Shown piece by piece: positions 59,757 through 63,133 of a DNA stretch of 64,000 bases; within the stretch, counting starts at the first letter, position 1, and the number at the start of each line of letters is the position of its first letter. The translations under genes and the position numbers were made by a program. Below the pieces are notes generated by a model. That model saw nothing but the letters and a program-made list of their open reading frames with translations. It was not told the origin of the DNA and made no database searches. Source of the stretch: Gimesia chilikensis (GTDB lineage: Bacteria; Planctomycetota; Planctomycetia; Planctomycetales; Planctomycetaceae). The stretch lies in the NCBI RefSeq assembly GCF_007744075.1, contig NZ_CP036266.1, positions 1,575,001 to 1,639,000 on the forward strand. The letters are read 5' to 3'.

Positions 59757-60020
59757 ATGCCTCGCCTGTTTGTTCCTCCCCTGCTCAGACCGTTCTGTGA
59801 GGGGGAGGAAGAAGTGGTTGTCGACGGGAGCACCGTGCTGGAAGCGGTGCAGTCCCTCGATGCTCAATATCCGGGAACGCTGGAGCGGCTCTGTCCTGAC
59901 GGGAAGCTGCGGCCCGGAATCGCGGTGACCGTCGATCAGAACGTAACTCCCCGGGGGCTATCGCAGAAGGTGTCACCCGAGAGTGAGATTCATTTCCTGC
60001 CCGCGATTGGTGGCGGGTGA
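59757..60020 (+). CDS. MoaD/ThiS-family sulfur-carrier protein
   Basis: An 87-residue ubiquitin-like carrier. It starts with PRLFVPPLLRPF, contains VDGSTVLEAVQSLDAQYPG and ends in IGGG, the C-terminal glycines needed for thiocarboxylate formation by a MoeB-like enzyme. AAGGAGG precedes the ATG by five bases. It follows the Mo-hydroxylase genes after 16 bp, so it may supply sulfur for cofactor maturation of that enzyme (inference). MoaD is favoured by context; ThiS-like or another role is possible. Confidence 0.85.
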   Translation: MPRLFVPPLLRPFCEGEEEVVVDGSTVLEAVQSLDAQYPGTLERLCPDGKLRPGIAVTVDQNVTPRGLSQKVSPESEIHFLPAIGGG

Positions 60021-60038
60021 GAGTGGAGTTTTCCGGCG

Positions 60039-60287
60039 ATGGTTGACTCTTCAGAATTTCCAGATCAATGCCCGGCATGCGGGCTGATTCTGCTCTCTGG
60101 TGCGATATTTGATGCGGCCGCTCTGGAGAAAGCATACGGTCCCATTCTGGGACTTCACAAAAATGTTGATCCTGAATCGGCCCTGGCAGGTTACGTCGGT
60201 CTCAGCAGCATGTGGAGTTATGATCTATCCCCCGAATTTTATCGATGCCCGCGTTGTAAAATAGACCCGATGGCGGGGAGTTCCTAG
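60039..60287 (+). CDS. Small CxxC zinc-ribbon-like protein
   Basis: An 82-residue protein with CPACG near the start and CPRCK at the end, a split zinc ribbon. The middle is QLDAAALEKAYGPILGL-like helical (FDAAALEKAYGPILGLHKNV). It begins 18 bp after the MoaD-like gene with GGAG ten bases upstream, so it is probably the fifth gene of that operon. No family recognised. A repeat element starts 13 bp after its stop. Confidence 0.65.
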   Translation: MVDSSEFPDQCPACGLILLSGAIFDAAALEKAYGPILGLHKNVDPESALAGYVGLSSMWSYDLSPEFYRCPRCKIDPMAGSS

Positions 60288-60300
60288 TAAGAGATTGACA

Positions 60301-60484
60301 GGGTGGCCTCGGATGTAATCCGAGGTTGTCGAGAGACAACAGGAGGTTGCGGAGCACTCTTTCTGTTGTGGTGGACGTGCCTCACTTTTGAATGAGAGCG
60401 GTTGGAGACATTGCTCTGAACTGATCGCTTTCACTGAGACCTCCTGCTCGCTGCGCTCGGCTCGGATTGCATCCGAGCCCACCC
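60301..60484. repeat. 184-bp palindromic repeat element, copy 1
   Basis: An element bounded by terminal inverted repeats of about 24 bases (GGGTGGCCTCGGATG... and its counterpart ending ...CATCCGAGCCCACCC), each containing its own hairpin (CTCGGAT/ATCCGAG). A second hairpin GTTGTC/GACAAC is at 60325-60340. Inner arms CAGGAGGT (60340-60347) and ACCTCCTG (60439-60446) are complementary. It lies between convergent genes: 13 bp after the zinc-ribbon gene and 24 bp from the GH43 gene stop. It has no ORF and no target duplication was seen. Same length and orientation as the copy at 62311-62494. Confidence 0.85.
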
Positions 60485-60508
60485 ATGCTTCTATTCTTGC
60501 CAGATGAA

Positions 60509-61525
60509 TTACTTCTTCAGGGGAAAGCCGATGGCGTTTTCCGGGGCGAGGAAGACGGTGCCGTGGCGCATCTGTTTGGCGGGGAGCTTCATTTCCGGAG
60601 TGCGGTTGGTCCAGGTCTGCAGGTCGGGGCTCGTGGCCAGGCAGTAAGAGAAGTGGCTGCCGGGGGCGTCCCAGTAGAGGTACCAGAGTCCGTCGTGCCT
60701 GAACAGGGAGGGGCCTTCGCCCATCGTGTTGACAATGGAGGTACCTGCGCCGACGATCGGCGGTCCGAGCGTGGTCTCGTAAGGGCCCTGCATGTGTTTG
60801 CTGAAGACGAGCCTTAAGTTTTTGCCTCCCTGGTCGGCGGGCATTTCGTTTTTGATGACCATGATCCAGCGGTCGTCTGTCGGTGTTTTCGTATTCTGAT
60901 CATCGTGGGCGATAAAAGGATCGATGACGCTGATTTCCGGCTGCGGGCTATAGAAGAGTTTGGGCTTCGTGAAGGTTTTGAAATCGCGGGTGCGGATGGC
61001 GTAGGGCCGGTGGTCGTGGCCGTGCTGGTCCCGGCTCTGGTCCTGATCGTTGAGTTCTGTTTCCAGCGTGGTGCTCCAGAGGATCAGGTATTCCTGCTGC
61101 TCCGGATCCCAGTGGATTTCAGGAGCCCAGGTGTTTTTTGCGCCGTCGCTTGCCTGCCAGACGACGATTTTGCGGGGCTCGCTCCAGTGCCGCAGGTCTT
61201 TCGAAGAGGCATGGCCGATGCTGCGTGACTTCCAGCTGGTGGTCCAGACCATGTGGAACTTACCGTCGTGATAGACGATGGAGGGATCGCGGGTCAGGCT
61301 TTCTTCGCCCCACTTCGGGGCGGGCATGACGACCTTGCCGTCGTTGAGCCAGTCGAAGTGCAGGCCATCGGTGCTAAAGGCGAGGTAGACGCCGGTTTCA
61401 CCGTTTCCCAGGAAGTAGGGGAGCAGGAAGATCTGGTTGGTGTTTTCTGGTTTTTCTGCTGCCGGGAGCGGGGTGAGGAAAGAGCAAAGCAGGAGAAACA
61501 GGATGCAGGGCGCTTGCGGTTTCAT
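60509..61525 (-). CDS. Secreted glycoside hydrolase family 43-like protein
   Basis: A 338-residue exported protein (signal peptide ILFLLLCSFLTPLPA). It is a five-bladed beta-propeller of the GH43/GH32-GH68 clan: FLGNGETGVYLAFSTDGLHF, SLTRDPSIVYHDGKFHMVWTTS (candidate catalytic base Asp), KNTWAPEIHWDPEQQEYLIL and EISVIDPFIAHDDQNTK. The acid Glu is probably in WAPEIHWD. Substrate is likely a plant or algal polysaccharide (inference). It is convergent with the zinc-ribbon gene across repeat copy 1. Confidence 0.85.
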   Translation of the reverse strand: MKPQAPCILFLLLCSFLTPLPAAEKPENTNQIFLLPYFLGNGETGVYLAFSTDGLHFDWLNDGKVVMPAPKWGEESLTRDPSIVYHDGKFHMVWTTSWKSRSIGHASSKDLRHWSEPRKIVVWQASDGAKNTWAPEIHWDPEQQEYLILWSTTLETELNDQDQSRDQHGHDHRPYAIRTRDFKTFTKPKLFYSPQPEISVIDPFIAHDDQNTKTPTDDRWIMVIKNEMPADQGGKNLRLVFSKHMQGPYETTLGPPIVGAGTSIVNTMGEGPSLFRHDGLWYLYWDAPGSHFSYCLATSPDLQTWTNRTPEMKLPAKQMRHGTVFLAPENAIGFPLKK

Positions 61526-61680
61526 TATAGTGCCATTCTGAGGGATGCGTTTGATGTCAGGGGCTCAATCCCATGTTAGCGGGGGACTGATCCTGGGGCT
61601 ACCATCACAAGGGTGATGCGTTGTCCCGGATAGAATCCAGGATCAACTTCTACGAATTAAATGAGAAAAGGAATTAATAG

Positions 61681-62304
61681 ATGGGATTGGATTTATGTTT
61701 ACAGGCAATTCCTGAGAAGTGCAAATTATTAGATCTGGTCAGTACGGGTAAAATTAAAGTCTATCTATTAGGGTTTATCAATTACCACTATGAGCACGAA
61801 GGACACGGAAAAGGTGAGCTGACTCTCAATCCCAATAATGAATGGGAGAATAATGAAGGCAAGTGCTTTATTGAGTCGCTGTATGATCTGGAAAAAACAT
61901 CGCCGGGTGTTTTAGATCGGAGTATGTATCTGGGGCGTGCCCATTCCTCGTTTTGCAGATTACTCGAGCTTCAGGCAAGAACTGAGGAAGAGGAAAAGAT
62001 TGCACGAAAATCTGTTTATGGGAATGATTTTCTGCCTGCATATCTGGGGGAACAAGAGGAGCCCAAGCTCAGGTGGAACTCTGCAGAATATTCTGAATTG
62101 ATCTATCTCTGGCTATCTGAGAGGTCTCCTGCAGAAATTGGAGATCAATATGTGCGGGCTGGATTTGGCAGAGAAACTGTTCGTCTGACGGATGAAGAGT
62201 ACGAACAACAAAAAATACAAGTTTCACAGTTGTTCAAAGAATTTCAGGATCTTTACAAAGGGGCCGTTGAGAATCAGGAAGCGATGATTGTGAAACTGTC
62301 CTGA
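61681..62304 (+). CDS. Hypothetical protein, AT-richer than neighbours
   Basis: A 207-residue protein without a signal peptide or membrane segment. The start MGLDLCLQAIPEKC is reminiscent of some DUF1877-like and contact-toxin immunity-like proteins, but I cannot confirm a family. Much of the body is charged and helical (AEYSELIYLWLSERSPAEIGDQYVRAGFG). Its codons are visibly AT-richer than flanking genes, which suggests recent transfer. AAGGA lies eight bases before the ATG. Flanked by the two 184-bp repeat elements. Confidence 0.65.
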   Translation: MGLDLCLQAIPEKCKLLDLVSTGKIKVYLLGFINYHYEHEGHGKGELTLNPNNEWENNEGKCFIESLYDLEKTSPGVLDRSMYLGRAHSSFCRLLELQARTEEEEKIARKSVYGNDFLPAYLGEQEEPKLRWNSAEYSELIYLWLSERSPAEIGDQYVRAGFGRETVRLTDEEYEQQKIQVSQLFKEFQDLYKGAVENQEAMIVKLS

Positions 62305-62310
62305 GTTGGG

Positions 62311-62494
62311 GGGTGGCCCCGGATGTAATCCGGGGTTGTCGTAGACAACAGGAAACTGTCAGGAGGGGAAGCATCAATTCAGAGCAGAACTGGCGACTGT
62401 GATGATCTGGTAGGAATCAGTTTCATTCTTTGAAAGATTTCACTGTCAGTTTCCTGCTCGCTGCGCTCGGCTCGGATTGCATCCGAGCTCACCC
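62311..62494. repeat. 184-bp palindromic repeat element, copy 2
   Basis: The same structure as at 60301-60484, in the same orientation and with exactly the same length. Terminal repeats GGGTGGCCCCGGATG... and ...GCATCCGAGCTCACCC, small hairpin GTTGTC/GACAAC (62335-62349) and the conserved block CTGCTCGCTGCGCTCGG near the right end. The inner arms differ from copy 1 but stay complementary: CAGGAAACTG (62349-62358) with CAGTTTCCTG (62447-62456). It lies six bases after the stop of the hypothetical gene and 21 bases from the response-regulator stop, again between convergent genes. Confidence 0.85.
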
Positions 62495-62515
62495 GTTTTA
62501 TGAGGGAGCTGTTTA

Positions 62516-62896
62516 TTACTCTGCAGTGAGCAGTTCGTTGACGGTCTGTACGAGGTCTTCGATGTGGTAGGGTTTGGGGATGAAGCGGTCGACGCCGCGG
62601 TCGAGGGCGAGTTCGCGGTATTTGGGTTCGCTGTTGCCGGTGACCATGACGATTTTGGGGGCCCGCTGCTTGTTGTTGATGATGCTGTCGAGGACAGCAA
62701 ATCCGCTGCGGCGGGGCATGACCAGGTCGAGGAGGACCAGGTCGGGGGCGTCGCGTTCGATTTTCATCAGGCCTTCGTTGCCATCGTGGGCGGTGAGCAC
62801 CTCATACCCTTCTGCTTCGATGGCCAGCTGTAAAGGCTCTGTAAGACCCTCGTCATCGTCGATGATGAGGACACGTTTTTGAGGAGAAGTGTTCAT
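62516..62896 (-). CDS. Single-domain response regulator (CheY-like receiver)
   Basis: A 126-residue receiver domain with no output domain. Acidic pocket Asp13/Asp14, phospho-acceptor Asp57 (LLDLVMP), Thr86 (MVTGNS) and Lys108 (IPKPYH) are all present, so it should accept a phosphoryl group from a histidine kinase. No kinase is in the window. Function could be motility or a phosphorelay. It is convergent with the hypothetical gene across repeat copy 2. Confidence 0.93.
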   Translation of the reverse strand: MNTSPQKRVLIIDDDEGLTEPLQLAIEAEGYEVLTAHDGNEGLMKIERDAPDLVLLDLVMPRRSGFAVLDSIINNKQRAPKIVMVTGNSEPKYRELALDRGVDRFIPKPYHIEDLVQTVNELLTAE

Positions 62897-63133
62897 TAGC
62901 CTGGCGTTTAAATCCTGGTGTGGCCCGCGCTGGGGAAGTGTGCAGAAAGTATTATATCACCCCCGCTGGCGAAAATCCAATTATTAAGATCCAACGGACG
63001 TGTGGCGCTCCCCAAACCGGTGCCGGTTCGATAAAATGGGCCGGTGCGCGCGTGGCGTGCGCCAGTTTCGGGATGGTCCGAGATCAATATGTCTTTATCT
63101 GTTTATTCTTAAATCACGCAATGGGATAGTTTT

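Follow-up and report, generated by a model that had tools for sequence, protein, structure and literature searches.

A strand-polarised family of asymmetric 184-bp elements, probably REPINs, in Gimesia chilikensis

Results

Two folded elements in the window

We have analysed a 64,000-nucleotide stretch of the Gimesia chilikensis genome (the window; positions 1,575,001-1,639,000 of the single 8.29-Mb contig NZ_CP036266.1), which contains two elements of 184 bp without a gene inside. They lie in one orientation on the + strand at 60301-60484 (copy 1) and 62311-62494 (copy 2), as an initial annotation made from the letters alone had described them. Copy 1 starts 13 bp past the stop codon of an 82-aa open reading frame (ORF) of doubtful status, and copy 2 starts 6 bp past the stop codon of a gene at 61681-62304 (+ strand). 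Convergent genes end 24 and 21 bp beyond copies 1 and 2, respectively. The 207-aa product of the gene at 61681-62304 has no match in Pfam or NCBIfam.

From left to right, each copy shows a GGGTGG tag, a hairpin with an 8-bp stem and a 3-nt loop (H1), a small accessory hairpin (H2; TTGTC..GACAA), an inner arm beginning with CAGGAGGT or CAGGAAACTG, a variable centre, the matching arm, an H2 of another kind, a second H1, and a tag. On the opposite strand the right H2 reads CGAGCGCAGCGAG, and the end tag is GGGTGG in copy 1 and GGGTGA in copy 2.

Copy 1 is a dimer of two head-to-head units with the left unit first, and dimers stand at the corresponding place in the relatives G009, G001, and G010. 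Its + strand carries the left tag (60301-60306), the left H1 with the loop GTA (60307-60325), the left H2 (60326-60339), and the inner arms CAGGAGGT (60340-60347) and ACCTCCTG (60439-60446), which form helix 4 of the covariation test described below. The - strand carries the right H2 with a GCA loop (60447-60459), the right H1, again with an 8-bp stem (60460-60478), and the right tag (60479-60484). In copy 2 the left tag (62311-62316), left H1 (62317-62335), left H2 (62336-62348), left inner arm CAGGAAACTG (62349-62358), and right inner arm CAGTTTCCTG (62447-62456) are on the + strand, and the right H2 (62457-62469) and the right H1 with its tag (62470-62494) are on the - strand. The inner arms quoted in the initial annotation are thus found in both copies.

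That annotation had also proposed terminal inverted repeats consisting of GGGTGG and a CGGAT/ATCCG hairpin. The hairpins are present at all four ends, which are the only places in the window with an exact CGGAT-N3-ATCCG site, but copy 2 terminates on the right with TCACCC instead of CCACCC. Moreover, the two ends are not plain inverted repeats of each other. Among the 93 dimers of the family described below, the outer three bases of the left and right H1 stems agree in only one, while most stems are fully self-complementary (73 left and 72 right), indicating that the ends are local hairpins rather than one long inverted repeat. When folded as single-stranded DNA, each copy was more stable than all of its 200 shuffled versions (z -4.45 and -5.51).

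Units, dimers, and covariation

The units were sampled from 44 stretches of the G. chilikensis genome and 20 stretches of seven relatives (eight genomes in total), all chosen because they hold matches. We found 336 unit matches and could parse 315 of them, 128 as left and 187 as right units. Within a distance of 260 bp they form 93 head-to-head dimers with the tags outermost, and every dimer joins a left unit to a right unit; 94 right and 35 left units remain unpaired. Most dimers are 180-188 bp long, with some near 192 and 200 bp and a few outliers from 125 to 245 bp. The tetranucleotide directly before the palindrome is GTAG or a degenerate form of it, which is the mark of the GTAG superfamily of repetitive extragenic palindromic (REP) sequences. 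GTGG, as in the left tag of copy 1, precedes 93 of the left units, followed by GTGA (13) and GTAG (4); right units carry GTGG (80), GTGA (29), GTAA (26), or GTAG (18). By our own crude gene prediction, only 4 of the 93 dimers overlap a gene by more than 60 bp.

The initial annotation had claimed that pairing is kept through compensatory change, and this holds on the 87 dimers that could be aligned, inner arms included. With the structure described above, 97.1% of cells were paired, compared with 32-46% in slid versions, and cells changed on both sides numbered 314, compared with 95.5 in shuffles (sd 15.2; none of 500 shuffles reached 314), although the dimers are related and these counts are not independent events. 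Two-sided changes occurred at stem pairs 1, 2, 3, and 6 of the left H1 and at four stem pairs of the right H1. In the left H2 a U-A to C-G swap was seen in 35 of the 87 dimers, and in the right H2 the outer C-G pair is replaced by U-A in 3 of 87; TGAG..CGAA forms also exist among right units. We read the fold of the right H2 as two G.A mismatches within the outer C-G pair. Of the 11 inner pairs, 7 had two-sided change in at least one dimer, with pairing kept in 96.2% of the cells so changed.

When the inner arms were coarsely sorted by three letters, both arms were of the same type in all 93 dimers, 83 being of the GGT type, like copy 1, and 10 of the AAC type, like copy 2. Since the inner stem would hold the two ends as one folded unit, both arms of a dimer would be expected to be of the same type. 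Both left backgrounds are found with each arm type (for AAC, TTGCC 5 and TTGTC 5), and part of the agreement between the arms could be due to exchange of entire inner blocks instead of repeated compensation. At positions 1-13 of the inner arms, wobbles on the left-first strand were 137 G.T and 17 A.C. In the outer hairpins this excess was weak, with 52:35 over all units on that strand and about even numbers inside dimers (20:18). We dropped the G.T excess as proof of the strand on which the inner stem acts, because both C-to-T pressure on the G-rich strand and shared descent act as confounders.

Copy number and distribution

A search of the G. chilikensis genome with copy 1 gave at least 62 matches at E <= 10 (40 of 110 candidates scored), some of which are the two ends of one element. 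The core of the right unit, with at most two mismatches, matched 93 times in very uneven clusters, compared with 1 and 0 for reversed-pattern controls. Accordingly, a trivial duplication of two copies can be ruled out. The whole element was matched in all 17 genomes of the genus and in none of 23 others (40 genomes, G. chilikensis included). A covariance-model search of relatives, which the initial annotation had suggested, found further matches that are strong only within the genus. The right-unit model matched 34 of 150 genomes from the order (at most 39 candidates scored per genome), of which 15 belong to the genus (best E about 1e-20) and 19 to 14 other genera of the same family, the latter being much weaker (best E 8.9e-9). 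The same model gave the window's left units 42-44 bits, and therefore left and right units resemble divergent forms of a single unit. Dimers may also recur at regular distances, as in a tandem array of four dimers 211-213 bp apart in G012 (L109:5041-5861) and in G008, where they return every 262-273 bp (L112:5500-12800).

A transposase gene flanked by dimers

We searched the 17 genomes of the genus with one REP-associated tyrosine transposase (RAYT) protein as query. Members of its subfamily (at least 72% identity) are present as open genes in G008, G001, G013, and G005, and G010 has a broken one. Each of the five genes is flanked by a complete dimer on both sides and reads on the strand of the left unit, and in G008 and G001 the stop codon falls inside the next left hairpin. 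The enzyme belongs to the Y1_Tnp family (Y1/HUH), and the DHVH and YxHMNP motifs are conserved in all five genes. Two members scored 112.7 and 123.9 bits with the NCBIfam model NF047646 for REP-associated tyrosine transposases (cut-off 80), compared with 30.1 and 28.6 with the IS200 equivalog model (cut-off 55). The sole match in the PDB at E <= 0.1 was 4er8, TnpArep (E 0.0022).

In G001 and G010 a dimer and the RAYT gene stand between a glycosidase gene and a response-regulator gene, at the interval that in the window holds the gene at 61681-62304 and copy 2. In G008 the RAYT gene lies slightly further on in the same neighbourhood. The site of copy 1 bears dimers in six congeners too. About 270 bp directly before copy 1 (60030-60296, with the 82-aa ORF) are missing at the same place in G001 and G009, where the gaps are 18 and 11 bp.

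The subfamily was not found in the G. chilikensis genome, which showed only two distant Y1 genes at about 24 bits. We rejected these two transposases as movers because no units lie at their loci; around 10 Y1 genes outside the subfamily (of more than 40 Y1 matches in the genus), 11 loci were free of units. The two Y1 genes of the G. chilikensis genome are near-identical and, at about 5.523-5.525 Mb (L057:6230-8330), stand, by eye, between short hairpins of the AAAGGGGTCAGGACTCTTTT / AAAGGGGTCAGGACTC type. This is a second transposase-repeat pair, unrelated to the 184-bp element.

A wider scan of named genomes with short peptide patterns, which reach close relatives only, gave one match, a RAYT of 53% identity in a Planctomycetota metagenome-assembled genome (MAG). 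A left-like unit (GGGTAG, hairpin, GCCGCAGGC, AAGAGGTC) stands before this gene and an inverted right-like unit (GGGTGG, hairpin, GCGCAGCG, AAGAGGGC) after it; the covariance model found the two at E 1.7e-5 and 9.4e-5. The H1 sequence is different there, and the left and right character of H2 is kept. Judging from this one locus, it may represent a gene-bearing form, L-RAYT-R, of which the 184-bp dimers would be gene-less L-R forms.

Orientation and GC skew

The units showed a marked polarity relative to local GC skew. When skew was taken from third codon positions, the locally C-rich strand was the one that reads tag-first in all 93 scored unpaired right units (with all bases, in 87 of 88; with intergenic bases, in 77 of 82), and in 86 of the 93 dimers the left unit was on the G-rich strand. 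A plain count that used neither masking nor a threshold gave 66 of 67 unpaired right units in G. chilikensis and 27 of 27 in the relatives, and 21 of 27 and 65 of 66 dimers, respectively; orthologous sites in relatives are not independent observations of orientation. Unpaired left units were mixed, with 23 of 35 on the C-rich strand (19 of 24 in G. chilikensis and 4 of 11 in the relatives). The gene-strand balance of the stretch does not account for the unpaired right units (49:43).

When 780 kb were read continuously, the skew was organised in domains and the units largely switched with them, and one dimer near 169 kb lay at near-zero skew. At 110-130 kb and 7.39-7.69 Mb of the G. chilikensis genome, the sign of the skew flips in domains within longer stretches, which suggests inversions. 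Among the matches listed, orientation changes in many blocks along this genome and four relatives. A lock to the current replichores was therefore rejected in favour of a lock to local skew, independent of the present distance from the origin. The genome has two genes with a DnaA domain. The one ribosomal-protein gene that we checked (L2 domain) is on the G-rich strand, a single data point that fits the G-rich strand being the leading strand. Although this assembly is listed as complete, a 16S rRNA model found no match in it, and this may be an effect of filtering or masking.

Two other repeats in the same stretches also favour the C-rich strand (74 of 84 and 47 of 50), and the polarity may be wider than this family; by eye they often adjoin right units and are thus not independent of them. 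The former count belongs to tandem TTTCGTG repeats (TTTCGTGTCTTTCGTGCTTTTCGTGGTAG type), which often follow unpaired right units (L031, L047, L053, L066, and others). Downstream of several unpaired units (L039, L051, L054, and others) there is a GTAG-REP of another kind (GTAGGGGCGAACCCATGTGTTCGCCCGCC type), and at one site it is kept in three genomes while the adjoining left unit is missing in one. In eight 50-kb stretches (400 kb) of E. coli K-12, a small sample scored with an assumed REP pattern and assumed positions of origin and terminus, REPs were not locked to the replichore in this way (39:31 overall and 9:5 among those unpaired).

Discussion

Interpretation as REPINs

Taken together, the family shows an inverted pair of REPs with outer tags, a folding spacer with compensatory change, a high extragenic copy number, and, in congeners, a RAYT gene with flanking REPs. 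Accordingly, we consider it highly probable that the elements are REPINs (REP doublets forming hairpins), that is, two head-to-head REP units which fold as single-stranded DNA and would have been spread by a RAYT. Of the mobile REP-like element, structured RNA, and 3'-end signal that the initial annotation had left side by side, the first fits best, because dimers flank the RAYT gene in five related genomes.

The folded dimer would have an outer tagged hairpin and an accessory hairpin on each side, and an inner stem that clamps both ends together in one unit. The RAYT of the subfamily is predicted to bind and cut the tagged hairpins on a single strand, probably at the replication fork, and this action would lead to the spread of dimers. 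A RAYT gene may once have been near the window site and then been lost from the G. chilikensis genome, leaving the copies as residents of gene ends.

Several observations weigh against this interpretation. The unpaired units are common, so that pairing of the arms is not needed for persistence. RAYT tracks copy number only in part, since G. chilikensis, G009, G012, and G014 hold many units and no member of the subfamily was found in them (G009 and G012 are drafts). Among ten candidate pairs of present and absent sites, of which five alignments were read, there was no empty site with clean junctions. All five had ragged ends and no target duplication, which is compatible with REPs and is no proof of movement. 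The dimers also partly follow the gene-strand balance of the stretch (67:25). Finally, the unpaired right units pose a puzzle. If the G-rich strand is leading, the lagging-strand template is G-rich, and dimers present their left unit on it with the tag first, in keeping with the expectation for IS200-like enzymes. Unpaired right units, on the other hand, expose their reverse complement there; their tag-first strand is the C-rich one, and for the active strand of a REP the usual lagging-strand-template rule would not predict this.

Alternative explanations

If the dimers were transcribed from the upstream gene, their fold could protect or end the message. This structured-RNA or 3'-end-signal explanation would suit the positions of copies 1 and 2 just behind stop codons and close to the ends of convergent genes, and 38 of the 92 dimers with genes predicted on both sides are in convergent and 8 in divergent surroundings, compared with 63 convergent, 56 divergent, and 160 co-directional among all gaps of at least 200 bp. 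However, both gene sides are alike, since 62 of 92 left genes and 60 of 92 right genes face the element. The G.T wobbles of the inner arms, which count in favour of this explanation, are also expected from C-to-T mutation pressure on the G-rich strand. Unpaired right units track GC skew instead of gene strand, and in dimers the link to gene strand is weaker than that to skew (67:25 compared with 86:7). A search of 59800-63000 in Rfam gave no match at E <= 1, and a known RNA family was rejected on this basis. We therefore regard this explanation as unlikely.

Being short, non-coding, present in many copies, and inverted at their ends, the elements also resemble a miniature inverted-repeat transposable element (MITE) whose terminal inverted repeats are recognised by the double-strand (DDE) transposase that moves it. 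We rejected a DDE-type MITE as extremely improbable, considering that the left and right stems differ while most are self-complementary, and that the gene flanked by the ends encodes a Y1 single-strand transposase; the five alignments without target duplication point the same way. Lastly, one polarity could be kept by selection for a signal of chromosome architecture, like KOPS or Chi, with mobility in the past. The strong polarity, which follows the skew domains near 110-130 kb and 7.39-7.69 Mb, and the failure to find the RAYT subfamily in G. chilikensis would agree with such a signal. KOPS and Chi, however, are short motifs and not hairpin dimers, and the limitation of strong matches to one genus among the genomes searched, the very uneven clusters, and the close association with RAYT in other genomes also speak against it, so that we consider it very improbable.

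Polarity and its implications

As REPINs, the elements are an asymmetric, strand-polarised form of a known kind, in which most dimers and nearly all lone right halves share one polarity relative to the G-rich strand. Beyond this, we tentatively propose, at somewhat less than even chances, an asymmetric REPIN with true polarity, in which the conserved left and right ends are distinct, as they already are around the RAYT gene of another lineage (L-RAYT-R), and insertion or survival depends on the direction of replication. It would be a single-strand transposon in the IS200 sense that has shed its gene and kept its ends and the inner clamp stem. If so, the orientation of each copy would record the replication strand and later inversions, and the family would be a bridge between REPs and IS200/IS605. 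How REPs spread is still unsettled, partly because many REPs are too symmetric to reveal direction. The distinguishable ends, strong covariation, and strand preference of this family make replication-coupled single-strand spreading testable by sequence. In addition, the family may serve as a natural marker of past inversions where GC skew is split into domains.

Comparison with known systems

In the literature searches made, which covered the sources in part, we found no description of these elements in this genus and no REP family whose left and right halves are fixed and which is closely locked to GC skew. A paper cited in PMC6006769 deals, by its title, with replication determining the orientation of transposable elements. 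With IS200/IS605 (TnpA Y1) the family shares an enzyme of the Y1_Tnp family, but this enzyme stays below the cut-off of the IS200 equivalog model and the copies here have no internal gene. The Group 3 REPtron Sm of Stenotrophomonas (PMC8266576) has a perfect 16-nt palindrome with a 3-nt interruption and a tag directly before it, which is the geometry of H1; the passages on REPtron Sm contain no accessory hairpin like the one found here.

The GTAG-tagged dimers of Di Nocera et al. (2013, PMC3733652) likewise have a tag before the palindrome, head-to-head dimers and heterodimers, and spacers with complementary ends or small stem-loops, and their REPs can overlap the 3' end of the transposase gene. 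According to the passages considered, that paper reports GTAG repeats from Planctomycetes and GTGG tags, a degenerate form, from O. terrae; the words Gimesia, Rhodopirellula, and Planctomyces were not met in its main text, and R. baltica is named. Unlike in that family, the tag here is mostly GTGG, and the same passages give no rule of orientation.

As far as the parts consulted go, the REPINs of Pseudomonas fluorescens (Bertels and Rainey 2011, PMC3116915) share with our elements two inverted REPs, a folding spacer with compensatory changes, an extragenic position, tandem clusters, and a link to RAYT. Compensatory change in the spacer was already reported there and is not new by itself. Arrays of opposite orientation on the two sides of the Pseudomonas genome are also described in that work. 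In contrast to those REPINs, the two halves differ in all 93 dimers and each has an additional small hairpin. Here, moreover, GC skew is followed by dimers and single units and not by arrays alone.

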